The notes below the pieces were generated by a model. That model did no database searches, was not told where the DNA came from, and was given only the letters and a program-made list of their open reading frames with translations. The position numbers and the translations under genes were made by a program. DNA of 64,000 nt from an uncultured Colwellia sp. (GTDB lineage Bacteria; Pseudomonadota; Gammaproteobacteria; Enterobacterales; Alteromonadaceae), in assembly GCA_913058145.1 (NCBI GenBank), contig CAJXQM010000001.1, positions 124,001 to 188,000 of the forward strand, given 5' to 3'. Below, in pieces: positions 38,458 to 56,070 of this stretch. Each line of letters starts with the position of its first letter. Within the stretch, counting starts at the first letter, position 1.

Positions 38458-38471
38458 TGAAAGCGCTTCCA
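38458..38471. promoter_or_regulatory. LacI-type operator 2 (symporter promoter)
   Basis: TGAAAGCGCTTCCA matches the pattern fully. Its centre is 59 bases from operator 1 and about 113 bases before the symporter ATG. Confidence 0.8.
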
Positions 38472-38577: not shown

Positions 38578-39840
38578 ATGGCTGGTACCCCGATTCAAGC
38601 AAATGTAAGTACGTTTTCGTTAAACGCTGAAAACAAAAATTATACCTTTGCACTTACATCATTGACATCACTCTTTTTTATGTGGGGATTCATTACCTGC
38701 TTAAATGATATTTTAATTCCTCATTTGAAAGGTATTTTTAATTTATCTTATAGCCAAGCAATGCTGGTACAGTTTTGTTTTTTTGGTGCCTATTTTATTG
38801 TTTCTATTCCTGCGGGAAAAATAGTTAAAAAATTAGGTTTTCAAAAAGGAATCGTATTAGGCTTAATTGTTGCCGCATTGGGTTGTTTTGCTTTTTATCC
38901 CGCAGCATCAATGCACAGCTATCCTGTTTTTCTAATGGCGCTGTTTATATTGGCCAGTGGTATTACGGTATTACAAGTGTCTGCTAACCCTTACGTTAGT
39001 ATTTTAGGAAATGCTAAAACAGCTTCTTCTCGCTTAAACATGACACAAGCATTTAATTCACTTGGAACAACTGTTGCACCATTTTTTGGTGCTTATTTGA
39101 TCTTAGATCAAGTCACAGAATCGATGTCAGCCACTCAACAAGCTGAGTCTGTTCAAATACCGTATGTATTACTCGCTGGTTTATTGTTATTACTTGCTGC
39201 TATTTTTTCTTATATAAAACTACCTGTTGTTGAGCATAGAAAAGAGTCAACTGATATAAAACAGATAAATGGTAGTGCTTGGCAATATCGTCATTTAGTT
39301 TTAGGTGCCATTGGTATTTTTGTCTATGTTGGCGCAGAAGTTTCTATTGGTAGTTTTTTGGTTAGTTTTTTCAATGATCCCAACATTGCTGGTCTAGAAG
39401 AATCTCAAGCCGCAAAATATATTGCCTATTATTGGGGCGGAGCGATGGTAGGTCGATTCATTGGTGCTGCTGTTATGCAAAAATTAGCAGCGGGTAAGGT
39501 ATTAGCTTTTAGCGCTGGTCTTGCAATAGTCTTGATTGTTATTACTATCTTTGCATCGGGACAATTGGCTATGTGGTCAATTTTGTTAGTAGGCTTATTC
39601 AATTCAATTATGTTCCCTACCATTTTTAGCTTGGCTATTAATGGATTAGGTCAGCATACTAGCCAAGGCTCAGGTATTTTATGTTTAGCGATTGTTGGTG
39701 GTGCTATTTTACCACTTATCCAAGGTGTTTTAGCCGACAGTATTGGTCTACAAAACTCATTTTTCTTACCCATCATTTGCTATGTATTCATTGCTTATTA
39801 TGGCTTGTCAGGTAGTAAACCTGTATCAGTAAAGGTATAA
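38578..39840 (+). CDS. sugar/H+ symporter, GluP/FucP type (MFS)
   Basis: Inner-membrane major facilitator of 420 residues and 12 hydrophobic segments. The N-terminal [21 protein letters not shown] and the [23 protein letters not shown] loop are typical of the glucose/galactose (GluP) and fucose (FucP) permeases. [13 protein letters not shown] and [15 protein letters not shown] are also signature segments. AGGAGAAAAAT gives a strong ribosome site. The GH3 gene starts eight bases after the stop, so glucose released by the glucanase is the likely substrate. Two operators lie upstream. Confidence 0.92.
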
Positions 39841-39848
39841 ATATTGTT

Positions 39849-42443
39849 ATGTCTATTCAAATAAATTCAATTAAAAGCGTTGCTAAACCCTTTATGGGGA
39901 TTGCTGTTGCCATGTCACTTTTTGCTTGTACTGATAACGCCAACTCTAACTCTAATTCGGATATAGCTCAGGTTGATGTTGCCCCTTATAGCGAAAACAA
40001 TATAACCATTTGGCCGGTACTTGATATTGAAGTTAAAAAAGACAGTAAAGTTGAAACTAAAGTCGCTAAAATTCTAGCGACTATGACGTTAGAGCAGAAA
40101 GTTGCACAGATGATCCAACCTGAAATCCGAGACATTACTGTTGAAGATATGCGTAGATATGGTTTTGGCTCATATTTAAATGGTGGTGGTGCTTTCCCTG
40201 ATAATAATAAACATGCCACACCTGCTGATTGGATAAAATTAGCAGAAAGTCTGTATCAAGCCTCTGTTGATGATTCGATAGATGGTTCCACTATTCCAAC
40301 CATGTGGGGGACGGATGCGGTGCACGGTCATAATAATGTAATTGGGGCGACATTATTTCCCCATAACATTGGTTTAGGGGCGACTAATAACCCTGGTTTA
40401 ATAGAAAAAATAGCAGAGATAACAGCTAAAGAAGTCATGGTAACTGGCATAGATTGGGTGTTTGCACCTACTGTAGCTGTAGTTCGTGATGATCGCTGGG
40501 GAAGAACCTATGAAGGTTACTCTGAAGATCCTGAAATAGTAAAAGCATATTCAGCGGCCATTGTAAAAGGGCTTCAAGGCTCTGTAGATAATGACTTTTT
40601 AGGCGATACTCGTGTTATCAGTACCGTTAAACATTTTATTGGTGATGGTGGTACTGAAGGTGGTGACGATCAAGGAGATAATTTAACCAGTGAGAGTGAT
40701 CTGTATAAACTTCATGCGCAAGGTTATGTTGGTGGTTTAACTGCGGGTGCGCAATCAGTAATGGCGTCATTTAATAGTTGGCATGGTGATAAACTCCATG
40801 GCAATAAATATTTAATGACAGATGTACTGAAAAACCGAATGGGCTTTGACGGGTTTATCGTTGGTGATTGGAATGGACATGGACAAGTTAAAGGTTGTAC
40901 TAATGAAAGCTGTCCACAAGCAATAAATGCTGGCTTAGACATATACATGGTACCAACTGCTGCTTGGAAGCCGCTATATGAAAATACCATTAAACAAGTT
41001 AACAATGGTGAGATTAGCTTATCAAGAATAGATGATGCGGTTAGCCGTATATTAAGAGTAAAAATAAGAGCAGGTTTATTCACTAAACCAAGTCCAGAAA
41101 ATCGTCTCTTATCTGGTAAAACAAACTTAATTGGCTCGGCTGAACATCGGTTAGTCGCTCGTCAAGCTGTACGTCAATCTTTAGTTTTACTTAAAAATAA
41201 CGCTAATTTATTACCCTTATCGCCGAGTGCAAATGTATTAGTTGCAGGAGATGGCGCTGACAATATTGGTAAGCAGTCAGGAGGATGGAGTATTACTTGG
41301 CAAGGTACAGGTAACACTAACGCTGATTTTCCGGGTGGTACTTCGATTTATGACGGTATAGAGCAAGTTGTTAATGCTGCTGGCGGTAAAGTACAATTAA
41401 GCCCTATAGGTGAGTTCACTGAAAAGCCAGATGTTGCTATTGTTGTTTTTGGTGAAGAGCCTTATGCCGAGGGTAATGGCGACTTAGATAACCTTGAGTA
41501 TCAACGCGGTAATAAAACCTATTTAGCTTTACTCAAACGCTTAAAAGCACAAGGGATACCTGTTGTTTCTGTTTTTATTAGTGGACGTCCACTGTGGGTA
41601 AATGCTGAACTTAATTCGTCTGATGCTTTTGTTGCCGCATGGTTGCCAGGTTCAGAAGGTAACGGCATAGCTGATGTTTTATTTAGTCAAACCGATGGTA
41701 GTGTAAATCATGACTTTGTTGGCAAACTTTCTTATTCATGGCCTGCACACTCAGACCAAACTACCGTTAATAGATTTGATGAAGATTATACACCACTATT
41801 ACCATATGGTTTTGGTTTAGCCTATCAGCAGCAAGATAATAAAAAAATGATCCTATTGTCTGATCAGTTAAGTGAAGTCTCTAAAAAATCTTCTGATGAG
41901 TTAGCCACTTTAAAAATATTTGAATTAGCGATTAAGCAGCCATGGAGTGTTGCGTTGCAATCAGGTGAACAGTCGTCTCCTGTTACTTCAAATACGCAGT
42001 CATTAGGGTCTATTACCTTAAGAACTATGGACAAAGTGGTACAAGAAGATGCTAGAACCATAACCTTTGATGGCAGTGAGCTGGCAAGTGTCAATATCTT
42101 TAGTAACTTTCCGGAAGATTTGCGGGCATATATCGAGGCTGACTCGGTATTAAGTTTTAGCGTGCGTTTAGAAACTACACCAGTAGCACCGATTAATTTA
42201 GCTATGAGTTGTGAAGGGGATTGCAAAGGTTCTCTTGATATTACCTCATTATTAATTGACAGGGGTTTAAATGAATGGCACAAGGTAACAATTGATCTAG
42301 CTTGCTTTAAAAAAGCGGGAACTGATTTTTCTAAAGTGATGTCACCATTTAATTTGTCTACTGCAGGGGAAGTATCGTTAAGTTTTGCAGATATAAATTT
42401 AATGCCACAAAGTACTGAACAAGCGATAATGAGCTGTGATTAA
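39849..42443 (+). CDS. GH3 exo-beta-glucanase/beta-glucosidase lipoprotein
   Basis: A glycoside hydrolase family 3 enzyme of 864 residues. A signal ends in a lipobox-like MSLFAC (Cys at about residue 27), so it is probably a lipoprotein. The GH3 N-domain covers about 60-410, with the catalytic nucleophile D340 in VGDWNGHG and KHFIGDGGTEGG. The C-domain follows (about 440-660). A further region of about 190 residues at the C-terminus resembles the extra sugar-binding-like domain of exo-1,3/1,4-beta-glucanases such as Pseudoalteromonas ExoP. It should release glucose from the non-reducing end of beta-glucan chains. It is in an operon with the symporter and GH16. Confidence 0.93.
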   Translation: MSIQINSIKSVAKPFMGIAVAMSLFACTDNANSNSNSDIAQVDVAPYSENNITIWPVLDIEVKKDSKVETKVAKILATMTLEQKVAQMIQPEIRDITVEDMRRYGFGSYLNGGGAFPDNNKHATPADWIKLAESLYQASVDDSIDGSTIPTMWGTDAVHGHNNVIGATLFPHNIGLGATNNPGLIEKIAEITAKEVMVTGIDWVFAPTVAVVRDDRWGRTYEGYSEDPEIVKAYSAAIVKGLQGSVDNDFLGDTRVISTVKHFIGDGGTEGGDDQGDNLTSESDLYKLHAQGYVGGLTAGAQSVMASFNSWHGDKLHGNKYLMTDVLKNRMGFDGFIVGDWNGHGQVKGCTNESCPQAINAGLDIYMVPTAAWKPLYENTIKQVNNGEISLSRIDDAVSRILRVKIRAGLFTKPSPENRLLSGKTNLIGSAEHRLVARQAVRQSLVLLKNNANLLPLSPSANVLVAGDGADNIGKQSGGWSITWQGTGNTNADFPGGTSIYDGIEQVVNAAGGKVQLSPIGEFTEKPDVAIVVFGEEPYAEGNGDLDNLEYQRGNKTYLALLKRLKAQGIPVVSVFISGRPLWVNAELNSSDAFVAAWLPGSEGNGIADVLFSQTDGSVNHDFVGKLSYSWPAHSDQTTVNRFDEDYTPLLPYGFGLAYQQQDNKKMILLSDQLSEVSKKSSDELATLKIFELAIKQPWSVALQSGEQSSPVTSNTQSLGSITLRTMDKVVQEDARTITFDGSELASVNIFSNFPEDLRAYIEADSVLSFSVRLETTPVAPINLAMSCEGDCKGSLDITSLLIDRGLNEWHKVTIDLACFKKAGTDFSKVMSPFNLSTAGEVSLSFADINLMPQSTEQAIMSCD

Positions 42444-42463
42444 TTCATTATTCATTAATTAGG

Positions 42464-42489
42464 CCGCCCTATTGTTAACCATAGGGCGG
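42464..42489 (+). other. intercistronic hairpin between GH3 and GH16
   Basis: CCGCCCTAT and ATAGGGCGG form a 9-base perfect stem around an 8-base loop. No T-run follows. It may stabilise the upstream message or reduce read-through into the GH16 gene. Confidence 0.55.
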
Positions 42490-42522
42490 TAGGTTCTTAC
42501 AGATATAATAGAGTTACTTCTT

Positions 42523-43674
42523 ATGTATGATTTTAAATTATGGTTAATCGCTTTTTCAATTTTTTTATCTGGTTGCGGTAGCGAATCTGCCAAAACGACC
42601 GCTAATATGCCAATTTCACCAGCGACAGAAGTTACTCCTGAGGTAGTGACACCTGTACCCGTTGAAGACGCATCCACCAAAATTCCGGATTCAGACCCTG
42701 AAAACCCAATAACTACCTCTTTAGTGAATGAGCAATGGCAGTTAATTTGGCAGGATGACTTTACTGATAATACTATTGATTTAAATAAATGGAGTTTTGA
42801 GGTCAATTGTTTCGGCGGGGGTAATGAAGAGCAGCAATGTTATACCGACCGAGAAGATAATGCTTTTATTGAACAAGGTATCTTGAAAATAGTGGCATTA
42901 AAAGAAAACTTTACCGGCCCTGCGGCACATGACGATGACACTAATTACAATCCTATGAATACCCGCACTCTACCTTATACATCAGCACGGTTACGTAGCA
43001 AAAACAAAGGTGACTGGACTTTTGGACGCTTTGAAATTAGCGCTAAATTACCGCAAGGACAAGGCACCTGGCCAGCCATTTGGATGCTGCCGACTGACTG
43101 GGCTTATGGTGGATGGGCTGGCTCGGGTGAAATAGATATTATGGAGGCGGTGAACTTAAAAACACAATCAGATGAAGTGGGTGCTAGCTTAGGGCAAGAA
43201 GAGTCACGTATACATGGCACGCTTCATTATGGGCGTGCTTGGCCTGAGAATGTTTATTCAGGTAAAGGATTTAACTTACCTGATGGTGTCAACCCTGCCG
43301 ATGGTTTCCACGAATACGCCATTGAATGGCAAGCAGGCGAAATCCGTTGGTATGTTGATGATATTCATTTTGCTACCCAGCGTGATACCGGCTGGTATAG
43401 CCAATATATGAATGATGAGGGCTTATTGATAGACGGTGAGGGTGGTGCACCTTTTGATCAAAAATTTCATTTATTATTAAATCTTGCGGTTGGGGGGAAT
43501 TGGCCTGCAACGGTTAACGACAAAGGCATTGATGATAGCGTGTTTCCACAATCATTAGAAATAGATTATGTCAGAGTGTATGAATGCTCGGTGTCACCAC
43601 TTACCGGTGCTGGATGTGAAACAATGGGCGATGAAGCAACATTTGTTGAAGGTAAGCAAACACCTGTATTGTAA
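42523..43674 (+). CDS. GH16 endo-beta-1,3-glucanase (laminarinase-type) lipoprotein
   Basis: A 383-residue secreted enzyme. The signal peptide ends in the lipobox LSGC (Cys at about 19), then a Thr/Pro/Glu-rich linker leads to a GH16 domain (about 70-355). The catalytic motif EIDIME spans E203, D205 and E208, with E203 as nucleophile and E208 as acid/base. Residues typical of laminarinases follow (GTLHYG, FHEYAIEWQAGEIRWYVD). It should cut internal beta-1,3 (or mixed-link) glucan bonds at the cell surface. It is the last gene of the symporter-GH3-GH16 unit. Confidence 0.93.
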   Translation: MYDFKLWLIAFSIFLSGCGSESAKTTANMPISPATEVTPEVVTPVPVEDASTKIPDSDPENPITTSLVNEQWQLIWQDDFTDNTIDLNKWSFEVNCFGGGNEEQQCYTDREDNAFIEQGILKIVALKENFTGPAAHDDDTNYNPMNTRTLPYTSARLRSKNKGDWTFGRFEISAKLPQGQGTWPAIWMLPTDWAYGGWAGSGEIDIMEAVNLKTQSDEVGASLGQEESRIHGTLHYGRAWPENVYSGKGFNLPDGVNPADGFHEYAIEWQAGEIRWYVDDIHFATQRDTGWYSQYMNDEGLLIDGEGGAPFDQKFHLLLNLAVGGNWPATVNDKGIDDSVFPQSLEIDYVRVYECSVSPLTGAGCETMGDEATFVEGKQTPVL

Positions 43675-43820: not shown

Positions 43821-44537
43821 TTAGGTAAACTCGATAAAAATATTTGCCGTGAGCCTTCCTGTACGTGGATTTGGATCAATATCTTTCGCTGGAGAGATAA
43901 TGCTCGAATGAAGCAATTGGCCGGGGTAAATTACTAATCGATTAGGTCTATATTCAATTTGTTCATATAACTCAAAGTGCTCATTTGTACGAGTACAGTA
44001 CTCTTGAGGAGACTCACCATTATTATCAATAAAGCGCTGAGCAGAAGCTAAATAGAATTCCACATTATGATCTTCAATTTTGTCTAACCCGGTAGGTTTG
44101 TGGCGAAATAAACCAGTGTTGCCGTGATTATCGTTATTTAGGTAATGTAAAACAGCAAAATAAAATGGTCGACTGGTGTCAAAATGTGGCATCCGTTGTA
44201 GTAGTTGTAATTCTGTTTCAGCTTTAGTTATTAACGAATAATAAGTTTCTTGAGGTTTTAATTGTAAATATTGAGGGATTTTGTAAATACGACAAATGTC
44301 TTGATAAATAGCTTGAAGTACCTTAATTACATAATTTCTAGGTAAGAAGGCTCTTATTCCGGGGTAATATGTATTACTAACCACTTTGAATTCAGCATCA
44401 TTGCAGGCATTATTGATAATATCATCGGTGTTAACAAGAAAGTCATCAATAATGATTACCGGTGTTTCATTAACGCCTACCGTTATTACCTGTAGTGAGA
44501 GGTCACTGTTTATGTTAATGTCTGTTTCTTGCATCAT
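43821..44537 (-). CDS. DUF6445-like protein (2OG-oxygenase-type fold)
   Basis: A 238-residue cytoplasmic protein. It has a His-x-Asp pair in RMPHFDTSRPFYFAVLHYL and a later His in RLVIYPGQLLHSSII, followed by an Arg (GRLTANIF). This spacing is that of the iron and 2-oxoglutarate sites of prolyl-hydroxylase-like enzymes. It resembles the DUF6445 proteins found beside tryptophan-halogenase-like genes; that family name is from memory. It follows halogenase 1 by 80 bases and is the last gene of the five-gene minus-strand set. The substrate is unknown. Confidence 0.7.
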   Translation of the reverse strand: MMQETDININSDLSLQVITVGVNETPVIIIDDFLVNTDDIINNACNDAEFKVVSNTYYPGIRAFLPRNYVIKVLQAIYQDICRIYKIPQYLQLKPQETYYSLITKAETELQLLQRMPHFDTSRPFYFAVLHYLNNDNHGNTGLFRHKPTGLDKIEDHNVEFYLASAQRFIDNNGESPQEYCTRTNEHFELYEQIEYRPNRLVIYPGQLLHSSIISPAKDIDPNPRTGRLTANIFIEFT

Positions 44538-44617
44538 TCATGTCATTAAATAGCTTAAAAAATGAGGAGGGTATTAGACCCTCCAGCAATAGTCGAATAT
44601 TAGTGCGTGTAAATAAA

Positions 44618-46114
44618 TTATACTATCGATGATTTACAATAATGTTGTATAAAATCATTATGATCTGGCCAGTTATCAACTTTATTTTTTACACCTGACT
44701 TTATATTATTTAAAAAAGTGACTAGCTCTTCATCTTCCATTAAATCAACAATAGGGTGATATTGATTAGGCATTAAGCCTTGTCCAAGCATAACTTGAAC
44801 CCAAGAAGCCTCACCGAATAACTCTTCTGCTTTTTTAAATACCTGGCCACTTTCTTTAAACAACGACATGCGATGTTTTAAGGTATCAGGGACATCCATA
44901 TTTTTACAATAACGCCAAAATGGTGTATCTGTCCTGTCAGTTAGATGATAGTGAAGAATAATAAAATCTTTAATGTTGTCTACTTCTGCTCTTGTTTGTG
45001 TATTAAATTCATCTACGTCAGCTTGCTTAATACCTTGAGAAGGAAACATAAGCATTAGTCGAACAATTGCCTTTTGAAATAAATGTATGCCGGTTGACTC
45101 TAGTGGTTCAATAAAGCCTGAAGATAAACCAATAGCTACACAGTTTTTATTCCAATGTTTCCTGCGTGTGCCTGTTTTATATTTGATAACACGCGGTTCA
45201 TTTAACAATTCACCTTCGACATTCTCTAAGAGAGTCTGTTTGGCTTCTTCATCAGTCATATATTTACTACAAAAAACCAGGCCATTACCGGTTCTACTTT
45301 GAAGCGGTATTCGCCATTGCCAACCAGCATCCCGAGCAATAGAACGAGTATAAGGTATTGGCTTGCCGACTGTTTTCGTTTGAACCGCGATAGCACTGTC
45401 ACAAGGTAATATATGGCTCCAATCTTCAAAACCTGTGTGTAGGGCATCTTCGATTAACAGCCCTTTAAAGCCTGTACAGTCTATAAAGAGATCTCCCTCA
45501 ACTATTTCACCTGATGCTAAAGTAATTGAGTCTATATAACCCGATTTATCGTTGAGGTTAACCTGAGATATTTTACCTTCTATACGTTTTGTGCCATATT
45601 TTTCGGCAATATTTCTTAAAAACTTTGCATAAAGGCCAGCATCAAGATGATAAGCATGGTTTAAATCTTGACTTGCTAAAGCTGCGTACTTACCTTTTCT
45701 TGCGCCCAAGTGTTCAGCAACATAATCACCGATATCAGAAGAAAAACCTTTCTTCATGCCTTTTAACCAAAAATGTTGAAAGCCAGCAGCCCAACAACTT
45801 TGGCCTAAGAAACCAAAGGAATGCATATAATCTTTATTGACATCTCGCCAATTTTCAAAAGATATTCCTAGTTTAAAGGTTGCATTGGTTGCCGCCATAA
45901 ACTCTTGCTCATTAATGCCTAGTAATTGATGAAAAATATGTAATGTTGGAATAGTCGCTTCGCCAACACCTACGGTAGGGATTTCGTCTGATTCCACTAA
46001 AACGACCTCGACAAGTTTACCGAGCACTTTAGAGAGCGCTGACGCCGTCATCCAACCAGCAGTACCACCACCGGCAACAACAACTTTTTTGATTGCTTTG
46101 TTATGTTCTTTCAA
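44618..46114 (-). CDS. flavin-dependent halogenase family protein (1)
   Basis: A 498-residue FAD enzyme of the tryptophan-halogenase family. The FAD loop is AGGGTAGW (14-21), the catalytic Lys is K81 in FKLGISFENW, the halogenase signature WxWxIP is present as WQWRIP (W265-P270), and the catalytic Glu is E339 in EPLESTG, where the S-T-G residues form the halide site in characterised enzymes. All key residues are thus intact. Such enzymes need reduced FAD from a partner reductase, which is not seen here. It lies in an operon-like set with cupin-8, SapC and a second halogenase, within a glucan locus. The natural substrate is unknown. Confidence 0.88.
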   Translation of the reverse strand: MKEHNKAIKKVVVAGGGTAGWMTASALSKVLGKLVEVVLVESDEIPTVGVGEATIPTLHIFHQLLGINEQEFMAATNATFKLGISFENWRDVNKDYMHSFGFLGQSCWAAGFQHFWLKGMKKGFSSDIGDYVAEHLGARKGKYAALASQDLNHAYHLDAGLYAKFLRNIAEKYGTKRIEGKISQVNLNDKSGYIDSITLASGEIVEGDLFIDCTGFKGLLIEDALHTGFEDWSHILPCDSAIAVQTKTVGKPIPYTRSIARDAGWQWRIPLQSRTGNGLVFCSKYMTDEEAKQTLLENVEGELLNEPRVIKYKTGTRRKHWNKNCVAIGLSSGFIEPLESTGIHLFQKAIVRLMLMFPSQGIKQADVDEFNTQTRAEVDNIKDFIILHYHLTDRTDTPFWRYCKNMDVPDTLKHRMSLFKESGQVFKKAEELFGEASWVQVMLGQGLMPNQYHPIVDLMEDEELVTFLNNIKSGVKNKVDNWPDHNDFIQHYCKSSIV

Positions 46115-46172
46115 AATAAAACCTTATTAATTAACGTTAACATTTGTCAGGTGAACTATTCTACTTGAGGCA

Positions 46173-47189
46173 CTATCGTTTTAATTTATTTAATAAATCG
46201 GCACGGATTTGTTTTGCTAATAACTCATCAAGGGGTTTTGATAACCTTCCTTGTACCGCTTTAGGGATATGTAAAAAATCTTCTTGATCATGATCAAAAA
46301 TATAATAATTAAATTGTGCTTGCCATGCTTTTCTTTGTGCTAGTGGCAAATCTTTCAAACTTAGCATTGCCAACATTAATGCATTATTAGGACGGCCCAT
46401 AAAGGCTGGGCTATCGCGCCACCAATGCGTAACGAGTACGTTAAATGCCGCTAAGCTTTGTACATGATGCCACCACATACTCGGTAAGAATAGCGCATCT
46501 CCAGCTTCTAATTCGGCAACTTGTGCCGATGCGAGCGCTTGTTTAAATTTGGGATATTTAACAAAATCAGGTTCATCAAAATCCACTAGACTAATTTCTT
46601 GCCCACCTGGAGAAAATTCCATAGGTCCGACGTACAAGTTTTCAAGCTGTTCAGGTGGAAATAGCGTGAATTTACGGCGTCCGACAACACAACAAGCTAA
46701 ATTATTAGGGAAGTCGAAATGTGCCGCTATTTTACTTTGGTTACCAATCCAAATACTTGTTAATGGCTTTAAGTGGTCTATCGAGGCATTATTTTCTTCA
46801 TTATAACCGGGTAACCAATTGTTAATTTCTGTCGAGCCAACATACATTGTCGGAGGTGTTGGATCATCGATATGCTCAAGTAGCTTATCAAATACTTGAT
46901 TTAGATTTGCTTTTGAACGTTGAAAATTAAAACCGCTGATATCTTTATTATAAAAAACACGACCGTTGATTTCAGGTTCACCATAGTAGGCTGTTACTGG
47001 GGTATTGGTATAAAATTTCCTTAGGTAATCAGTGGCCGATTTTGGTGATTTTTTGCCAGCGATTACAGCAGGCCAATTAGTACCAAAATTTTTTAAAATT
47101 ATCGGCTCAGAAGAAGATAAAACAAATTCAGGAATATCACCTGGCAGGCAATTGTAAATTTCTTTTACTTTATGGTTAATCGTTAACAC
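46173..47189 (-). CDS. cupin-8/JmjC-like iron oxygenase
   Basis: A 338-residue protein with the cupin_8 (JmjC-like) fold. Metal ligands are likely H157 and D159 in AAHFDFPNN and H241 or H242 in PSMWWHHVQSL. GRRKFTLFPPEQLENLYVGP between them is typical of the FIH/JMJD5-related bacterial group. Such proteins hydroxylate peptides or small molecules with Fe(II) and 2-oxoglutarate. It lies 58 bases before halogenase 1 and 48 bases after the SapC-like gene, so it is probably in the same operon. Confidence 0.85.
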   Translation of the reverse strand: MLTINHKVKEIYNCLPGDIPEFVLSSSEPIILKNFGTNWPAVIAGKKSPKSATDYLRKFYTNTPVTAYYGEPEINGRVFYNKDISGFNFQRSKANLNQVFDKLLEHIDDPTPPTMYVGSTEINNWLPGYNEENNASIDHLKPLTSIWIGNQSKIAAHFDFPNNLACCVVGRRKFTLFPPEQLENLYVGPMEFSPGGQEISLVDFDEPDFVKYPKFKQALASAQVAELEAGDALFLPSMWWHHVQSLAAFNVLVTHWWRDSPAFMGRPNNALMLAMLSLKDLPLAQRKAWQAQFNYYIFDHDQEDFLHIPKAVQGRLSKPLDELLAKQIRADLLNKLKR

Positions 47190-47237
47190 TGAATATACCT
47201 ATTTAGCTAAGTAATTATCTTTTTACAAGCTTAATGT

Positions 47238-47966
47238 TTATAAGCCAAGTTGTTCATTTTTTTTATTCATTAATGTTCGAATATTTGATTGTGAGGCAAT
47301 AGTCATATAAATGGCTTGTAAATATCCCTTGTCATGCAATAAGGTCAATGTATCGCTTGATAGCTCTTTTAGTTTATCTTCATTAATTGTATAAAAACCA
47401 ACCATTTGGTTTTTGCTTTCATCGTTTAATGTTACATCTAAAGTAAAAGATTCTAATAATTCATGTTCAATCAGCATATCAATGAATAATTTACTATCAA
47501 TAAGCCCATGATGTAATGTTTCTAGCATATCTGCAGCGTTATCTAGATAAGGTGTATTCCCACCAAACTCTAAAAATAGTGCCTCTCCTTTCTCTTTGTT
47601 AACTCTAGGATGTTCAAGGTCAATATGTAAAACTCTTTGTTCTTGATCTGTCCCATCTTCAACAACTTTCTGCACGCCAATTAAGAAAGGTTGTCTGGTG
47701 ATGCTTAATGGGATATAGGCTGCATCCCATTGATTATTTGATAAAAATAAGTTTTCATTATCTTGAAAACCAAATAGCGCAACAGAAAAAAACTGACCAG
47801 TACCTTGGTCTTTGTTAAAAAATATAGGGTAATAGGCTTGAACACTTCTAAATTCAGTAGGGAAGGTGAGTGTGAACCATACATTGTCACCGTATTCTTC
47901 AGAACGTTCGGTAATGACTTTTAAATTTTGATGGTCGCTACTATTTATAGATACATGGTTTGCCAT
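47238..47966 (-). CDS. SapC-family protein
   Basis: A 242-residue protein of the PF07277 SapC family (the name is historical and unrelated to the SapC permease). It has no signal peptide. The segment QAYYPIFFNKDQGTGQFFSVALFGFQDNENLFL (residues 44-76; shown in parts as YYPIFF and ALFGFQDNENLF) and AAYIPLSITRQPFLIG are the family core. Its biochemical role is unknown. In many proteobacteria SapC genes sit next to TonB receptors, halogenases and cupin-8 genes, exactly as here. Confidence 0.82.
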   Translation of the reverse strand: MANHVSINSSDHQNLKVITERSEEYGDNVWFTLTFPTEFRSVQAYYPIFFNKDQGTGQFFSVALFGFQDNENLFLSNNQWDAAYIPLSITRQPFLIGVQKVVEDGTDQEQRVLHIDLEHPRVNKEKGEALFLEFGGNTPYLDNAADMLETLHHGLIDSKLFIDMLIEHELLESFTLDVTLNDESKNQMVGFYTINEDKLKELSSDTLTLLHDKGYLQAIYMTIASQSNIRTLMNKKNEQLGL

Positions 47967-48045
47967 ATTGATTCCAAATTATGTTATGTGTTTATGTGCT
48001 TTTTTATTAATGCTATTTTAACTATTAGTTAAAATATTTTTATGG

Positions 48046-49599
48046 CTATAATTTTGGTAAACCATATTTTTTAATTTTATTTATTAATTCGCGATTTGTT
48101 GGCAAAGAAGATAATAGTTGCTTTGTTTTTTGTACATTATCATTAAACAAACTCTCTGCTTTTGATGATTGATCAATTCTTTTTTTATGGGGTGTTTGGG
48201 TCATAAAGCCCATTCCATATAAAACGAACTGAAAACTTGCCGGTGGAAACATTTCTTCAGTATGTATCGCGTCGTATTTATAAGGGGTTTGGTATTGCCA
48301 TAATGCTAACTGTTCTTGTAATTTTTCAGGTAGCTGCGTTTCGTTTCTATTATCGCACCAATAATCTGAATCAGTCCTTTTACTTAATACGTAATGCAAT
48401 TTGAGAAAATCAACAATGTTTTCCCAACGATGTAAAAATTTTTCGTTAAAACGTTTAGCAACAATATCCATTGTTTGACGATTAACGGGTAGCTGTTCAC
48501 TAATCATTTTAGCTGAAAGTTCTATCAAGGCTAATGCTGAAGCTTCTAGAGGTTCAATAAAGCCTGCCGCCATTCCTACGGCAACACAGTTTTTATGCCA
48601 GAACTTTTCTCTATGCCCTGGATTGAGTCCTATTTTTCTAATCATAGCCGCGTCGGCAGATTTTTTACCCATAAGAGGAATAATGTGATTCCTTAGTTCT
48701 TCCTCAGCTCTTGTGTCGCTAATATGGGCGCTTGAATAGGTATAACCTACACCTCGTCGTGAAGGTATACCTATATCCCAAATCCACCCCGAGGTTTGTG
48801 CTGTAGAAGAGGTAAATGAAGCAATCGGACACTCTTCACTTTCATAAGGCACATGAACCGCTAAAGCTGAATCGTTAAATAAAATATGCTTTTTACTTAT
48901 AAAAGGAATTTTGTAGTGTTTAGCAAGTAAAATTGATGCTGTACCTGTGCAGTCAATAAAAAGGTCACCCGCAATATCACCATTTTGTGCGGTGGTAATC
49001 GACTCAATATCACCTGTTGTTGATGCATTTATTTTAATAACATGATCAATCACGTGCTTAACGCCTAACTTTATTGTGCAATGTTTTTGTAAAAACTGAC
49101 CAAACTTACCCGCATCTAAATGGTAACCATAATTTACTGCAAATGAATACTCAGCGGTTGTTATTTGTTTTGGGGCTAAATTATGAGTACCTAAGTGACT
49201 TTGTTCACAAACAGCATCTGCAAAACTAATTTTATCACTAAAAGGTTGCCAATATGGTGCAAGGTTTATGTCATTGAAACCATTTGGCATGGTAAATGGG
49301 TGATAATAGTGCTCGTTAGTATTGGTCATCCAGTTGGTAAATTTTGAACCTTGTTTAAAACTTGCATCGCATTCGATTAAAAATTCAGTTTCTGAAATCC
49401 CCATTTTTTTTAAGGTACTTCGCATTGACGGCCAAGTACCTTCACCAACACCTATAGGGGCAACCGTTGCCGATTCAACCAGTGTTATTTCTAACCCGAA
49501 ATTTTCACTGGTAGCATGTTCTGCAGCAATTATTCCAGCAGTTAACCATCCTGCGGATCCGCCACCAACAATCACTATTTTTTTTAATGGTTTGTTCAT
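48046..49599 (-). CDS. flavin-dependent halogenase family protein (2)
   Basis: A 517-residue paralogue of halogenase 1. The FAD loop is VGGGSAGW (11-18) and the catalytic Lys is K82 in FKQGSKFTNW. The signature is WIWDIGIP (W272-P279), with two more residues between the second Trp and IP than in WxWxIP. The Glu motif is EPLEASALAL: E352 is kept, but the halide-site S-T-G is A-S-A (353-355). It may use another halide, or carry out another flavin reaction. It is the first gene of the five-gene set, 79 bases before the SapC-like gene. Confidence 0.85.
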   Translation of the reverse strand: MNKPLKKIVIVGGGSAGWLTAGIIAAEHATSENFGLEITLVESATVAPIGVGEGTWPSMRSTLKKMGISETEFLIECDASFKQGSKFTNWMTNTNEHYYHPFTMPNGFNDINLAPYWQPFSDKISFADAVCEQSHLGTHNLAPKQITTAEYSFAVNYGYHLDAGKFGQFLQKHCTIKLGVKHVIDHVIKINASTTGDIESITTAQNGDIAGDLFIDCTGTASILLAKHYKIPFISKKHILFNDSALAVHVPYESEECPIASFTSSTAQTSGWIWDIGIPSRRGVGYTYSSAHISDTRAEEELRNHIIPLMGKKSADAAMIRKIGLNPGHREKFWHKNCVAVGMAAGFIEPLEASALALIELSAKMISEQLPVNRQTMDIVAKRFNEKFLHRWENIVDFLKLHYVLSKRTDSDYWCDNRNETQLPEKLQEQLALWQYQTPYKYDAIHTEEMFPPASFQFVLYGMGFMTQTPHKKRIDQSSKAESLFNDNVQKTKQLLSSLPTNRELINKIKKYGLPKL

Positions 49600-49780: not shown

Positions 49781-49847
49781 AAAAAGGCCGCATAAATAAT
49801 CGAATACATTGTCGAATACATTGTCGAATAAATTATGCGGCCTTTTT
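49781..49847. terminator. bidirectional terminator after the 993-residue TonB receptor
   Basis: AAAAAGGCCGCATAA and its exact complement surround a 37-base loop that holds two copies of TCGAATACATTG and a partial third. A-run and T-run flanks allow termination in both directions. It separates the receptor gene from the halogenase set. Confidence 0.75.
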
Positions 49848-49878: not shown

Positions 49879-52860
49879 TTAGAAAGTGTAACGAGCACCT
49901 AAAGAGTAGCGTGCACCTTGTTGTATTGAATCTAATACTTGGCGTTCATCACGTCCACTAGTACGAGCATTCTCTTCAGTAATGTTGATAGCATTGAAGA
50001 AAACAGTCAACCCTTCCGCTTGTGGTACATCGTAACTTACCGTCATATCAACTTGACCGTACTCTTCTATGTAACGAGGACCGGGACCTGCTTGACCATC
50101 TTGTACTAGTGCCACTAGGAACTTATCACGCCAGTTATAAGCAATACGTACTGATAAACCATATTTCTCGTAGAAACCGACAACGTTAGCTGAATCACTA
50201 ATACCTAGCTCAGCAGCTTGAGTACCAAGATCAAAGTCATCATGTTCATTGTCAGTATTTGTTTTAGTATAATTTACAATACCTCCAAAACCACTTTCAC
50301 CAAATAGGTGTTGTACGGCAAATTCAATACCGTCATAACCCGTAGTCTCACTTAAATTTTGAGGCGTATTAAGAGCAAAGTTCATCAAGTTATCAGTCGC
50401 TTCATTACCTAAAATAATTATGTTGCCATTATCCATAAATACGTGTTCTGGGTCAGTTGCTCCATAAGTATCAAAGATATATTGACGTTGTGCTAAGCCA
50501 TCGTTACCAACAGCAGCACGCGCTTCTGCTACATAAGGACCATCTGCAGGGTTAACGATACCCGCGGTTGTATTAACAGGGTTTACCAAAATATCGTTTG
50601 TTACGTCTTTAGTGAAATACCCTAAAGACACATAGCTACCTTCGTTATAATACCATTCAGCTGACAAATCGTAGTTTTCTGATTCAAGCGGTAATAAAGC
50701 AGCGTTACCAGTAGAACCAATACCACCACCAACACGAGCACCAGAATTCAAGTTGGTACCACCGATCATACTTGTGTACTGTGGGCGACCAATTGTTTGA
50801 CTATATGCAGCACGAAGAATAACATCATCAGTTACTTCTAAGTTAAAGTTAATACTTGGTAAAGTATGATCATAACTTGCATCTTGTGTACCGTAGACAA
50901 CATTACCAGAGCTTAATAGTGATACTTCACTGGTACCTTCCCAACGAGGTTCGTTAGTAAATTCAGGTACTGACGAGGTTGAAGTTACATCTGTTTCTTC
51001 ATAACGTACACCTAGATGCACATCAAATGGCATTTCACCAATTTCACCTTCATAGTTATATTGAAGATAAACCGACGTCATTTTTTCTTCAGTGTATTGG
51101 TCAGTTTGTGAAGCATAGTCACTTGATGGACAAAATGAATTACCACAATCCCCTAACGCAGATTGCTGTACACTTAATACATCAACAGCACGTTCTCTTA
51201 CACCATTAAAGTCAAAAGCGAAATAATTTTCTAAAATTTCTACATCGCCATTATAACCTTCAAAATTACCACCGCTGAGGTTATCAAACTGGTCATGAAT
51301 ACTTACTCGTGGAAATAACGACTCATCAAATGACCCAGCAGTACCTTCTCCACCCCAGTTATTTCGTTGAACATTCTTTTCTCTGTGACGGTTTTCAGAG
51401 TTTGTTAATGAAAGGCCAAAATCTATGCTACCCGCTTCTTCAAAAATATAATTACCATGCAATTGAGTTTGTGTAATATCAGCTTGGTTTTTGATATTTA
51501 CAAAAGAGCTACCGGTTATTATCATGTCTGAGGCTTGAACGGCGTTGCCCCCAGTGACTGAAAGCATTGGAATATCGCCAGTATAATCAGTTGCTGATGC
51601 TGTGCGAACAAAAGCTGCCATAGCTACAAGATTACTTGAACCTAGTGGGCTATTTGGATTACTTGTCGCTGAAGAATCATGATGATCAAGTCTCATTGAT
51701 AAACTATCATTGACTTGCCATTCTAGGTTTAAACCTAATGATTTAGTTTCATCTTTAACACTATAATCACCGCCACCCATTGCAAGATCGGTAGGATTAC
51801 TTGGATCAAACGTTTCAGAATAAATAGCAGGAGAACTAATAGGGCCATCTGTCCAAACGTTTTCACTTGGACCAAAGTTATACCATACTGAAATGTCATT
51901 GAATTGTGTGTCATTTTCTTTTTTAACGTAAGTATAATCCAATGTCGCAGTAAAATTGTCCATCGGTTTATATTGCAGTACTAACTGAGCATTACTTCTT
52001 GTACGTTGTTGTTCTTCAAATTTATAAATTGTATTTTGTGGTACTGAGTAAATATCATCATCACCAGGTCGGTTTGTTTGTGTATCATCTTTTGCTACAC
52101 CACCCCAAGCTGCATTAGCACCACTCCAGTCAGTATCTTGAATTCCGGCAAAACTACGCCAAAATGCAGTTTTACCTTGCTGACTGCCACTTTCACGCTC
52201 TGAATAACTGCCTGAGATTGAAACACCAAATTTACCATCATCAAAAGTGTTTGAATATAATCCCGAAAATTGTGGGGTAGTTGAACCTTTTTTAGTCGAC
52301 TGATCCTTTAGTGCTTCTGCACTGATTACCGCTTGTAAACCTGGGTTATCAAGAGGGCGGTGAGTAGAAATATTGATTGTTGCGCCAATACCACCGGTAG
52401 GAACATCAGCTTTTGATGTTTTGTATACTTGAACTCCGCTAACACCCTCAGCAGCTAGGTTGGCAAAATCAAATGAACGCTCACCTGTGGTAGTAGGAAG
52501 TTGACGGCCATTAAGCGTTACTAAGTTGCGTTGAGGACCAAAACCACGAGCGGTTACTTTACTACCTTCGCCGTTTGATCTTTCAATAGAAATACCCGTA
52601 ATACGTTGTAACGATTCAGCTAAGTTACTATCTGGAAATTTACCAATGTCTTCTGCGTTAATCGCATCAACGATCCCACTAGAAGAACGTTTAATATCCA
52701 TTGATTTGATCATACTGCTACGGATACCGGTAACTTCAATTACTTCAACTACTTCTTTATTTACTTCTTCAGCAGCAAAAGCAGGTGCTATCGCCGTTAC
52801 CCCTAAAATTAGTGATAAACTTTTAGCAAGTTGAGTTTTTTTAAAATGTGAATTATTCAT
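49879..52860 (-). CDS. TonB-dependent receptor, Caulobacter type (TIGR01782-like)
   Basis: Outer-membrane transporter of 993 residues. The signal peptide ends at about APAFAAEE. The segment VEVIEVTGIRSSMIKSMDIKR is the typical start of saccharide-type receptors, followed by the plug with IGKFPDSNLAESLQRITGISIER and GFGPQRNLVTLNGRQLP. The barrel ends with GARYTF, with a terminal Phe. The gene has two LacI-type operators 42-97 bases upstream of its ATG. It should import oligosaccharides made by the GH16 enzyme. Downstream on the same strand lies the halogenase set, beyond a terminator. Confidence 0.92.
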   Translation of the reverse strand: MNNSHFKKTQLAKSLSLILGVTAIAPAFAAEEVNKEVVEVIEVTGIRSSMIKSMDIKRSSSGIVDAINAEDIGKFPDSNLAESLQRITGISIERSNGEGSKVTARGFGPQRNLVTLNGRQLPTTTGERSFDFANLAAEGVSGVQVYKTSKADVPTGGIGATINISTHRPLDNPGLQAVISAEALKDQSTKKGSTTPQFSGLYSNTFDDGKFGVSISGSYSERESGSQQGKTAFWRSFAGIQDTDWSGANAAWGGVAKDDTQTNRPGDDDIYSVPQNTIYKFEEQQRTRSNAQLVLQYKPMDNFTATLDYTYVKKENDTQFNDISVWYNFGPSENVWTDGPISSPAIYSETFDPSNPTDLAMGGGDYSVKDETKSLGLNLEWQVNDSLSMRLDHHDSSATSNPNSPLGSSNLVAMAAFVRTASATDYTGDIPMLSVTGGNAVQASDMIITGSSFVNIKNQADITQTQLHGNYIFEEAGSIDFGLSLTNSENRHREKNVQRNNWGGEGTAGSFDESLFPRVSIHDQFDNLSGGNFEGYNGDVEILENYFAFDFNGVRERAVDVLSVQQSALGDCGNSFCPSSDYASQTDQYTEEKMTSVYLQYNYEGEIGEMPFDVHLGVRYEETDVTSTSSVPEFTNEPRWEGTSEVSLLSSGNVVYGTQDASYDHTLPSINFNLEVTDDVILRAAYSQTIGRPQYTSMIGGTNLNSGARVGGGIGSTGNAALLPLESENYDLSAEWYYNEGSYVSLGYFTKDVTNDILVNPVNTTAGIVNPADGPYVAEARAAVGNDGLAQRQYIFDTYGATDPEHVFMDNGNIIILGNEATDNLMNFALNTPQNLSETTGYDGIEFAVQHLFGESGFGGIVNYTKTNTDNEHDDFDLGTQAAELGISDSANVVGFYEKYGLSVRIAYNWRDKFLVALVQDGQAGPGPRYIEEYGQVDMTVSYDVPQAEGLTVFFNAINITEENARTSGRDERQVLDSIQQGARYSLGARYTF

Positions 52861-52901: not shown

Positions 52902-52915
52902 TGGAAGCGCTTTCA
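52902..52915. promoter_or_regulatory. LacI-type operator 3 (TonB receptor promoter)
   Basis: TGGAAGCGCTTTCA, a full match to TGRAAGCGCTTYCA, 42 bases upstream of the receptor ATG. Confidence 0.85.
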
Positions 52916-52943
52916 ATACAATTTAAAAAAAAACATTTTATTT

Positions 52944-52957
52944 TGGAAGCGCTTTCA
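52944..52957. promoter_or_regulatory. LacI-type operator 4 (TonB receptor promoter)
   Basis: Identical to operator 3. The centres are exactly 42 bases apart, four helical turns, which would let two bound repressors face the same side. Confidence 0.85.
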
Positions 52958-53232: not shown

Positions 53233-54564
53233 TTAATTACAGGTTTTATTTTGTAATGATTGATGAATAGACTCTACTGTTTTTGTATCAAGTATGTACC
53301 AGCGCATTACCCATGCAACCAATATTGAGCCTATGGCAGGAAAAAGAGTAAAGGAAGCCAGTATTCCTTGTTGTGCAGTTATACTTTGTTCAATGTCAGC
53401 TTGGTAGCCATAATAAGCTAATAACCAACCGGCTAAGGCACCGCCAATTGCGACACCAAGTTTGATGAAAAAAACAATAGCAGAATAAACCATTCCCGTT
53501 ATTCTAACGCCAGTTTTCCAATGACCATAATCAATAGTATCCGCCATTTTTGCCCAAAGTAATGGCGTTGCCATTTGTAGGAAAAAACTCCAAAGAAAGA
53601 ATAAAGTGAAGGCCATAACTGTTTGTTCACTACCAACAAAATAACTGATAATACAAATAAAAGCAGCGATTGATTGTAAACTAATATAGGCTTTAATTTT
53701 ACATACTTTTTTAGAGAGTGGTAACGCCAGTGCACAACCTAGAATGCTGCCTATCATCCCTAAAGTCATAAATAACGTGATCAGATCAGCGCGACCTAGA
53801 TAATATTTTACATAATAAACGGCGAGTGTGCCGCGCAGTACTTGGCCACTTAATAACATTAATCCAGCTAAGCAAAGAATTCGCCATTGATCATTTTTCC
53901 ATAAGGCAGACAAATCTTCTTTAAAGCTTGAGTTTTGATCTTTTGGCGGGCTGACTCTTTCTTTGGTTCCGGCAAAACAAAGCAGAAAAAGCATTAAGCC
54001 TAGTAAGCTCATAGCTATCATAGTGTATTGATAGCCTTGTGCTTTATCTCCAGCACCAAACCACTCTACTAATGGCATAGTGCCTGCAGCAACAATTAGA
54101 CCACCTAGCATACCAAAAACAAATCGATATGATTGTACTGATACACGTTCTTGAGGGTCAGCGGTAAGCACACCACCTAGCGCTGAATAAGGAATGTTTA
54201 TCGCGGTATAAGCGATCATTAACAAAGTATAAGTAGCAAATGCATAAACGATTTTACCATTTTCAGATAAATCAAAGGTGGTAAAAGCTAAAATACTGAT
54301 CAGGCAAAAAGGCAGGGCTAGCCATAATAAATAAGGCCTGAATTGTCCCCACTTAGTTTTTGTTCTATCAGCCATTGCCCCCATTAAGGGATCAGTGATT
54401 GCATCGAATATTCTAACCACAAGAAAAAGAGTGCCAACAAGTGCAGGAGAAAGACCAACAACATCGGTATAATAAATAAGTAAAAACATCATCACGGTTT
54501 GGAAAATGATATTACTGGCTGTGTCACCCAAACCGTAAGCTATTTTTTCTTTAATTTTCAGCAT
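53233..54564 (-). CDS. GPH-family sugar:cation symporter
   Basis: Inner-membrane transporter of 443 residues in the glycoside-pentoside-hexuronide (MelB-like) family. The N-terminus KIKEKIAYGLGDTASNIIFQ and the DPLMGAMADRTKTKWGQFRPYLLW motif are family hallmarks. About 12 hydrophobic segments are seen. It lies 67 bases downstream of the GH1 gene on the same strand, so it is probably co-transcribed from the GH1 promoter and imports beta-glucosides or glucobiose. The substrate is inferred from the neighbours. Confidence 0.9.
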   Translation of the reverse strand: MLKIKEKIAYGLGDTASNIIFQTVMMFLLIYYTDVVGLSPALVGTLFLVVRIFDAITDPLMGAMADRTKTKWGQFRPYLLWLALPFCLISILAFTTFDLSENGKIVYAFATYTLLMIAYTAINIPYSALGGVLTADPQERVSVQSYRFVFGMLGGLIVAAGTMPLVEWFGAGDKAQGYQYTMIAMSLLGLMLFLLCFAGTKERVSPPKDQNSSFKEDLSALWKNDQWRILCLAGLMLLSGQVLRGTLAVYYVKYYLGRADLITLFMTLGMIGSILGCALALPLSKKVCKIKAYISLQSIAAFICIISYFVGSEQTVMAFTLFFLWSFFLQMATPLLWAKMADTIDYGHWKTGVRITGMVYSAIVFFIKLGVAIGGALAGWLLAYYGYQADIEQSITAQQGILASFTLFPAIGSILVAWVMRWYILDTKTVESIHQSLQNKTCN

Positions 54565-54631
54565 GTGAATCTCTTTTTTTAAAGTTAATATTCTTCTTAT
54601 TTTATATACAACGACACTTTAAATTTTTCAA

Positions 54632-55984
54632 TTAATTATTTGATAAATAATTACTATTTCGTTGATGGATTAAATCACTATAGGCATAACCACTGGCTTT
54701 TATTGTTCTCTCTTGGCTTTGATAATCGACATAGACAATACCAAACCTTTTTAAATAGCCTTCAGCCCATTCAAAATTATCCATTAAACTCCAAGCAAAG
54801 TAACCTCTGATGTCGACACCTGATTCAATGGCTGTATTTACCGCGTTAAGGTGGCTTTGGTAATAAGCGACTCGGTGAGCGTCTTCTACTTTGCCATCTT
54901 TGATACTGTCAGGCATTGCTGCACCATTTTCAGTGATATAAATAGGAGGTAGGGTATATTTGGCATTTAAAGAAATCAATAAATCAGAAAACCCTGATGG
55001 ATATATTTCCCAACCCATATCGGTTAATGCAACATCTTTAAGGGTAATTTGAGCGAATATTTCATTGTCATCAGCTTGATATATTGCACGTGTATAATAA
55101 TTAATACCTAAAAAATCAACAGACTCTGCAATGATGTCCATATCACCTGCAATGATATCAGGATGTTGTGATAATGGCAGTTGCGAAAGTATTTCTGGAT
55201 ATTGAGCATCAAAAATAGGCTTTATATACCATTGATTAAAATAATCATCGGCGAATTGAGCTGCTGCTATATCAGCTGGGTTTTTGGAAGCAGGGTAGCT
55301 AGGGCTAAAATTAAGTACTATGCCATTAAGTGTATTCGGGCTTAATTTTTTAAGTGATTGCATCGCTAAACCATGAGCAAGTAATAAATGATGTGCTGCC
55401 TTTTTGCCGAACTCTTTACCTTTAATACCGGGTGCATGAATGCCAATTTCATAGCCTAAATAAGCGCTGCAAAAAGGCTCATTTAACGTAGCATACGAAT
55501 GCACTCTATTGCCAAATGCTTTAATCACTATTTCTGTATATTTTTGAAATTCATAAGCTGTTTCTCTGTTTAACCAACCCCCTTTATCTTCAAGGTGTTG
55601 AGGTAAATCCCAGTGATAAAGCGTAACAAAGGATTTAATGTTTTTCTCAACTAATTTATCTAACAAGGCAATATAAAATGCTACACCTGTTGCATTGATA
55701 CTGCCATCTTCATTAACAACTCTTCCCCACGAAATAGATAAACGATAAGCATCAACGCCGAGAGATTCAATAATTTCGATGTCTTGAGGCCATTTATGGT
55801 AATGATCACAGGCAAGGTCTCCATTTGAACCATCGACAATACTGTTTTCTAAAGAGCAAAATGTATCCCAAATGCAGGGTAATCGTTGGTTAATTCCCCC
55901 CTCTATTTGGAATGAGGCAGTAGCAACACCATAAATAAAATCTTGTGAATTCATTTTTGAGTTGTTAGGTAAAGTCAATTTCAT
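54632..55984 (-). CDS. GH1 beta-glucosidase
   Basis: A 450-residue cytoplasmic glycosidase without a signal peptide. The acid/base is E169 in ATLNEPFC and the nucleophile is E352 in YITENGAA, the two GH1 signatures. The N-terminal FIYGVATASFQIEGG motif is the second family signature. It should split beta-glucobioses brought in by the GPH symporter encoded just downstream. Two LacI-type operators lie 40-86 bases upstream of the ATG. Sequence cannot separate beta-glucosidase from beta-fucosidase or related activities, but context favours glucose. Confidence 0.93.
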   Translation of the reverse strand: MKLTLPNNSKMNSQDFIYGVATASFQIEGGINQRLPCIWDTFCSLENSIVDGSNGDLACDHYHKWPQDIEIIESLGVDAYRLSISWGRVVNEDGSINATGVAFYIALLDKLVEKNIKSFVTLYHWDLPQHLEDKGGWLNRETAYEFQKYTEIVIKAFGNRVHSYATLNEPFCSAYLGYEIGIHAPGIKGKEFGKKAAHHLLLAHGLAMQSLKKLSPNTLNGIVLNFSPSYPASKNPADIAAAQFADDYFNQWYIKPIFDAQYPEILSQLPLSQHPDIIAGDMDIIAESVDFLGINYYTRAIYQADDNEIFAQITLKDVALTDMGWEIYPSGFSDLLISLNAKYTLPPIYITENGAAMPDSIKDGKVEDAHRVAYYQSHLNAVNTAIESGVDIRGYFAWSLMDNFEWAEGYLKRFGIVYVDYQSQERTIKASGYAYSDLIHQRNSNYLSNN

Positions 55985-56056: not shown

Positions 56057-56070
56057 TGAAAGCGCTTCCA
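56057..56070. promoter_or_regulatory. LacI-type operator 6 (GH1 promoter)
   Basis: TGAAAGCGCTTCCA, a full match and identical to operator 2. Its centre is 33 bases from operator 5, about three helical turns. Confidence 0.82.

Follow-up and report, generated by a model that had tools for sequence, protein, structure and literature searches.

What could two flavin-dependent halogenases and two putative oxygenases have to do with a TonB receptor for sugar uptake? The question is raised by a set of five genes on a 64,000-nucleotide stretch of DNA from an uncultured Colwellia sp. (assembly GCA_913058145.1, contig CAJXQM010000001.1, positions 124,001 to 188,000), hereafter called the window. The set encodes the halogenases HalA and HalB, a SapC-family protein, a Cupin_8/JmjC-type oxygenase and a DUF6445 protein, and it lies beside a gene for a TonB-dependent receptor of the family TIGR01782. 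We propose that it constitutes a receptor-linked cytoplasmic protein-tailoring cassette, which acts most likely on the precursor of the adjacent receptor before export, a reading that we favour with caution as it still falls somewhat short of probable. From sequence comparisons we infer the protein nature of the substrate, the receptor as target, the chemistry, the regulation and the role of SapC.

The five genes are located on a single strand with intergenic gaps of 80, 58, 48 and 79 bases, and the Pfam scores of all five proteins far exceed the family cut-offs. The receptor gene lies upstream on the same strand, while a GH16 gene is found on the other side of the set.

43821..44537, minus strand: DUF6445 protein, 238 amino acids, probable Fe(II)/2-oxoglutarate oxygenase (PF20043, 229 bits)
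44618..46114, minus strand: halogenase A (HalA), 498 amino acids, TTG start, Xcc4156/BrvH type (PF04820, 630 bits)
46173..47189, minus strand: Cupin_8/JmjC-type oxygenase, 338 amino acids, GTG start, FIH-like (PF13621, 238 bits)
47238..47966, minus strand: SapC-family protein, 242 amino acids (PF07277, 242 bits)
48046..49599, minus strand: halogenase B (HalB), 517 amino acids, 2pyx-like subgroup (PF04820, 387 bits)
49879..52860, minus strand: TonB-dependent receptor, TIGR01782 (629 bits, cut-off 310)

This layout agrees with an original prediction made from the letters of the window, which had described five genes on one strand, separated by 48-80 bases and placed between a GH16 glucanase gene and a saccharide-type TonB receptor gene; coordinates, Pfam families and both flanks were confirmed. 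Its statement that all five proteins lack signal peptides agrees with the N-termini, in which none was seen on inspection by eye.

The same prediction had stated that such genes recur next to TonB receptors and suggested a survey of their co-occurrence with TIGR01782 receptors. In 11 single-contig genomes of the same bacterial family, 49 of 55 halogenases were found within 5 kb of such a receptor, compared to about 1.6 for random placement. This applies to both halogenase types (HalA-type 23/27, random 0.8; HalB-type 26/28, random 0.8) and to Cupin_8 (8/10, random 0.3). A random distribution was thus not seen for the halogenases, and the association was weaker for SapC (16/27, random 0.7) and DUF6445 (2/5, random 0.1). 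Halogenase and SapC genes close to a receptor mostly follow it downstream on the same strand (58/65). The counts consider receptors above the TIGR01782 cut-off only and random means from 300 placements; 11 weak PF04820 rows (20-64 bits) and one SapC row of 20.7 bits from genome G162, which is part of a HalB-SapC fusion, were excluded, and the 10 Cupin_8 rows include a weak one (40.8 bits). Since 37 of 43-54 receptor candidates were scored in three genomes, receptor numbers may be low. One of the halogenases counted as receptor-less (G146:C1:2515882-2517243) adjoins a receptor-like frame below the TIGR01782 cut-off.

Outside the family, 24 of the 28 halogenases listed for six genomes are located within 5 kb of a receptor (500 random trials gave a mean of 1.0 and at most 5), and a listed halogenase occurs within this distance of 20 out of 48 receptors. 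The control genome of Caulobacter vibrioides likewise gives matches to PF04820, PF07277 and TIGR01782. These halogenases are among the matches listed, with at most six scored candidates per genome; one row of G279 is missing and another is weak (142.7 bits). On the receptor side, two rows of G376 (contig 2) and two others below the cut-off were excluded, and for two receptors that were represented by fragments the rows were joined. Direct reading of 20 non-family loci, which are part of about 46 distinct ones and overlap partly with the six genomes, revealed a receptor recognised by our own profile within 2.1 kb in 17 cases, and L161, L165 and L174 contain none in their 20 kb. In the genome of the window itself, all three halogenases found adjoin TIGR01782 receptors, the third one starting 95 bases past the receptor open reading frame, and a receptor beside a mannitol dehydrogenase gene on contig C4 is without a halogenase. 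A second TIGR01782 receptor of this genome (L023, G000:C48, 529-5173) adjoins a pullulanase gene and is interrupted by two transposase-like open reading frames with rve and HTH_Tnp_1 matches. The order receptor-HalB-SapC-Cupin8-HalA was present in 15 of 86 SapC loci, with DUF6445 directly next in nine of them, window included; these 86 were tallied out of 91, as five loci gave no SapC with our own gene caller despite a Pfam match. A dedicated tailoring cassette would be expected to stay next to a single exported candidate substrate; this was seen for the halogenases and in weaker form for SapC and DUF6445.

Judged by their conserved catalytic residues, the enzymes of the set look intact. HalA gives a nearly full-length match to the structure of Xcc4156 (6y1w, E 6e-187), followed by BrvH (6frl, E 1.5e-138), and also aligns nearly end to end with 9luq, while the closest structure to HalB is 2pyx (E 1.4e-195). 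All HalA (35/35) and HalB (52/52) relatives retain the catalytic Lys and Glu, and the first Gly of the GxGxxG motif for flavin adenine dinucleotide is equally invariant in them. In what we take to be the halogenase motif WxWxIP, HalA of the window reads WQWRIP and HalB reads WIWDI with the P missing at that place; both Trp are invariant among relatives, and the P is also missing in most HalB relatives. The Cupin_8 protein has its best matches in the Protein Data Bank (PDB) to FIH (E about 8e-18) and belongs to a group that keeps the iron triad HxD...H in 26/26 relatives, and where the window protein has Lys173, 20 of the 26 carry Arg, 4 Lys and 2 Gln. For DUF6445, no credible PDB match was obtained and the predicted model was too poor for assigning a fold (predicted local distance difference test, pLDDT, 43). 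An HxD...H pattern and an Arg are invariant in 17/17 relatives, all 17 aligned members match PF20043, and two of the 17 match PF13640 weakly (best E 0.008); from these residues and the weak match, DUF6445 is probably an Fe(II)/2-oxoglutarate oxygenase. The DUF6445 protein (43821-44537) further matches PHROG 1644, annotated as minor coat protein (E 3e-17), and both halogenases match PHROG 2928 (tryptophan halogenase), which indicates that relatives of DUF6445 and of the halogenases are carried by phages.

Is the set then a part of beta-glucan utilisation, as its embedding in the window, noted by the original prediction, might suggest? The third halogenase of the window genome adjoins its receptor in a locus of the alpha-glucan type, with two GH13 genes and one GH31 gene. 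We further compared 53 halogenase loci, a non-random sample of which 47 were found via SapC searches, two stem from the window genome and four were retrieved on account of a receptor or halogenase. A receptor is present within 6 kb in 50 of them (all except L090, L108 and L152), and in 47 of 49 if the four fetched loci are omitted. SapC occurs in 46 of the 53, a figure biased by the 47 loci found through SapC; Cupin_8 occurs in 25 and DUF6445 in 15. The commonest other clusters are the GPH symporter and LacI with 15 loci each, and no catabolic or regulatory cluster exceeds this number. Given the alpha-glucan locus and the lack of any such cluster above 15/53, the set is not tied to beta-glucan, and a beta-glucan-specific role is not supported. 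Relatives of the set recur beside such receptors in many bacteria and at sugar loci of different kinds, which suggests that a protein, not the sugar, is probably modified. From the list of targets originally considered, the receptor or another exported protein fits best, whereas the same two observations leave an aromatic group on the polysaccharide unsupported.

A link to the receptor is also supported by co-divergence. For identical locus sets, SapC correlates with the receptor at rho 0.68-0.83, compared to 0.11-0.75 with LacI, MFS, GPH, GH3 and GH1, and HalA correlates with it at 0.87-0.95, compared to 0.21-0.68 with the same five.

SapC is present in 54/59 genomes of the family and in 21/143 genomes drawn from the class; a scan of genome contigs with SapC of the window alone gave seven close loci (L026-L032), and a scan of viral contigs gave no match. 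In one relative, at locus L117 (1217-3205), HalB runs into a C-terminal SapC-like region within one frame of 662 amino acids. The HalB profile covers residues 2-505 and the SapC profile about 509-656 (33 bits, E 1.9e-12 in a single-protein search); although its SapC part is shortened, the fusion also passes the Pfam SapC cut-off (34.4 vs 28.9 bits). From this single case we take SapC to work together with the halogenase, and we propose it as a halogenase partner or substrate-handling subunit. Other SapC genes keep different company. In the class survey (18 loci with SapC by our own profile, 23 fetched), seven loci carry SapC within 1.5 kb of an open reading frame of more than 1800 amino acids (L034-L037, L039, L042, L049), in L035 together with TolC-like and HlyD-like genes. 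Three of the giant frames were scanned, which revealed a TPS secretion domain in one (L049), DUF5649 repeats in another and nothing in the third. Solitary SapC genes also occur in conserved settings: one group adjoins mraZ-mraW (e.g. L062, 9551-10309), and the second SapC copy of the window genome (L021, 9047-9808) adjoins DUF416. The occurrence beside giant frames or as a solitary gene means that SapC is distributed more broadly than the receptor system, and SapC in general may handle exported proteins.

Several results weigh against the proposed receptor-linked tailoring and have to be set against the evidence above. In the 11 family genomes, 11/27 SapC and 3/5 DUF6445 genes are located away from receptors, 35 of 68 receptors are without a halogenase within 5 kb (33 have one), and one genome, G182, contains SapC and DUF6445 and no halogenase. 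The composition of the set varies as well, with HalA only, HalB only, and with or without the oxygenases. At the level of residues, no column cleanly separated 54 set-bearing from 35 set-free receptors (largest frequency difference 0.60), in a comparison that covered 16 residue types (all but A, I, L and V). A phylogenetically paired test yielded 0/9 significant receptor residues at low power; the best one, W326, changed in the same direction in 3.5 of 12 pairs and in the opposite one in 0.3 (median p = 0.25), and the outcome is a weak negative since fewer than six informative pairs cannot reach 0.05. The Trp content of receptors is equal with and without the set (p = 0.23). Lower contents of Tyr (p = 0.001) and His (p = 0.002) in set-bearing receptors were not used, as they come without phylogenetic control. 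Co-divergence is likewise uneven: HalB follows the receptor in two comparisons (rho 0.67, 0.79) and does not in three (0.06, -0.01, 0.17), in one of these three its correlation with the GH1 cluster (0.74) is higher than that with the receptor, and the value for Cupin8 and the receptor is moderate (0.46). Adjacent genes tend to be co-inherited, so co-divergence supports a partnership and does not prove it. Finally, the AlphaFold model of SapC (pLDDT 66, moderate) had no PDB match at E <= 0.001, and a profile search of PDB sequences with SapC returned nothing credible.

Taken together, the residue tests, the Trp content, the set-free receptors, the variable composition, the behaviour of HalB and genome G182 keep two other explanations alive. 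The set could make or alter a small aromatic molecule (a ligand, a signal or a phenolic decoration of the polysaccharide). Small molecules are the usual substrates of characterised flavin halogenases, most of which are small-molecule enzymes. According to the accessible text of the respective papers, indole is halogenated in vitro by both BrvH and Xcc4156 (PMC5945002, PMC7336383), but given the low activity of BrvH on it, the authors of that study question its role as natural substrate (PMC5945002). The alpha-glucan locus, at which an aromatic substrate would not be expected, also carries a halogenase. Since structurally solved JmjC/Cupin_8 relatives moreover include protein hydroxylases, we consider a small-molecule substrate rather unlikely.

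The set could also modify another exported uptake protein, i.e. a surface glycanase, a lipoprotein or a part of the TonB system, with the receptor being a genomic landmark only. The SapC genes that adjoin giant and probably exported proteins, with no receptor nearby, would fit, as would the halogenases without a receptor within 5 kb (6/55 in the family, 4/28 of those listed outside). However, no other protein cluster rises above 15/53 halogenase loci, and a distant shared substrate would leave it unexplained why the genes sit so close to the receptor and why SapC and HalA co-diverge with it, which makes this an unlikely alternative. Could the genes simply travel along with mobile, sugar-induced receptor loci via shared regulation and act on neither receptor nor sugar? 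At least 14 changes of halogenase presence on a tree of 91 receptors point in this direction, together with the missing signature residue in the receptor and the inconsistent behaviour of HalB. Mere hitchhiking, however, accounts poorly for the conserved downstream order on the same strand, the recurrence outside the family, the invariant catalytic residues, and the fact that SapC and HalA track the receptor more closely than the catabolic genes of the same loci do; we regard it as quite improbable. Hypohalous acid or peroxide chemistry, with reactive halogen produced close to the polysaccharide as a weapon against competitors or for redox defence, is hardly credible: of the two explanations given in the accessible text of PMC11337851 for halogenase transcripts of Colwellia and phage, one invokes bactericidal intermediates, but without visible signal peptides there is no evident way outside, and the two oxygenases, SapC and the receptor adjacency would be left unexplained.

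Returning to a tailoring cassette for the receptor, how would its expression be coupled to that of its candidate substrate? The surrounding beta-glucan locus comprises LacI, MFS, GH3 and GH16 genes and also a GPH symporter, GH1 and glucokinase. It contains the palindromic LacI-type operator TGRAAGCGCTTYCA in four exact copies (38458, 52902, 52944 and 56057), and six matches with up to two mismatches compared to 0.69 expected.

49781..49847, minus strand: terminator-like hairpin with T-run between the receptor and the five-gene set (from folding energy)
52902..52957, no strand: two exact LacI-type operators TGRAAGCGCTTYCA upstream of the receptor
38458..38471, no strand: operator TGRAAGCGCTTYCA upstream of the MFS-GH3-GH16 genes
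56057..56070, no strand: operator TGRAAGCGCTTYCA upstream of the GH1 gene
37277..38275, minus strand: LacI-family regulator (PF00356, 66 bits)
38578..43674, plus strand: MFS transporter, GH3 and GH16 (beta-glucan side)
53233..55984, minus strand: GPH symporter and GH1 beta-glucosidase

None of the six operator matches precedes the five-gene set. A LacI-like site upstream of HalB (49614) was rejected as it is at chance level (22 matches with up to three mismatches, 17.75 expected). The hairpin between receptor and set reaches -27.4 kcal/mol (z -6.2, segment 49775-49850) and is followed by a T-run; its stem is also visible by eye in the Colwellia loci L026 and L027 (three relatives aligned). Our consensus terminator scan, restricted to loops of 3-8, did not list it. 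The loop contains a short direct repeat (tattcgacaatg). Between 43500 and 53300, promoter-like sites (36 vs 34.3) and short-loop terminator-like sites (6 vs 5.8) were at shuffle level and were disregarded. With such a strong hairpin and T-run in between, a single unbroken transcript is not required, and we infer either reduced transcription of the set from the receptor promoter or a separate promoter for the set. Within the set, gaps of 48-80 bases are too short to conceal a small peptide substrate; in the 279 bases that precede HalB, open reading frames of 27 and 32 amino acids are present on the coding strand around the hairpin.

Based on these observations, maturation of the receptor in the cytoplasm can be sketched as follows. 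LacI-type regulation at the operators would control the receptor together with the beta-glucan genes, and owing to the hairpin the five cytoplasmic proteins would be made at a lower level than the receptor. SapC, which the fusion links to a halogenase, would bind and hold the precursor of the exported protein. HalA and HalB would then halogenate or hydroxylate aromatic side chains, and Cupin_8 and DUF6445, both with a metal triad, would hydroxylate further ones, the altered residues lying in the receptor plug or in its extracellular loops. Export of the finished protein would follow, with the neighbouring TonB receptor as the likeliest candidate. The effect of the modification would be to tune or protect this receptor rather than to act on the sugar. 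In this detailed form, with SapC as holder and halogenases and 2-oxoglutarate oxygenases as modifiers of plug or loop residues, the scheme is a tentative possibility.

The enzyme families are known, and no earlier account of the receptor-linked cassette or of its function was apparent: titles and abstract openings of the open-licence matches listed included no paper that links these enzymes to receptors or describes such a set. If the receptor is indeed modified, a post-translational layer would exist on nutrient receptors of many proteobacteria. Outer-membrane transporters would then have a covalent modification system, and a natural role would be at hand for the Xcc4156/BrvH halogenases.

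How does the set compare to known systems? FIH-type enzymes are protein hydroxylases, and Cupin_8 shares with them the family PF13621, the Fe triad and the best PDB match; it differs in that the position of Lys173 in the window protein is mostly Arg in relatives (20/26). A modification of a protein precursor in the cytoplasm is known from the flavoprotein QhpG, which dihydroxylates a Trp, as stated in the accessible text of PMC7876137. Both halogenases show weak NCBIfam similarity to QhpG (E 2.6e-6 and 1.5e-5), but score 26.6 and 24.1 bits, far below its cut-off of 240 bits, and the set genes include neither a radical-SAM partner nor a small gamma subunit. With LacI, a GPH symporter, GH1, GH3, GH16 and a TIGR01782 receptor, the locus resembles TonB carbohydrate loci of the Shewanella and Xanthomonas type; a bgl system with a TonB receptor and the GPH-family BglT has been described (PMC2996990). 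However, halogenase, SapC and cupin are not mentioned in the accessible main texts of PMC2996990 and PMC1790865, and that of a TonB review (PMC11658791) contains neither halogenase, posttranslational or post-translational, nor covalent modif or hydroxylat. HalA belongs with Xcc4156 and BrvH. The accessible main texts of their papers (PMC7336383, PMC5945002) mention neither TonB nor SapC, and that of PMC5945002 no cupin. Yet the likeness extends beyond the nearly full-length match to HalA: the BrvH study reports low activity on indole and a second halogenase gene upstream of brvH (PMC5945002), so that brvH, like HalA, has another halogenase gene nearby, and for Xcc4156 an open active site is reported and peptide substrates are proposed (PMC7336383, accessible text). 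For these halogenases, so far studied as brominating enzymes, the adjacency to TIGR01782 receptors names a concrete candidate substrate.

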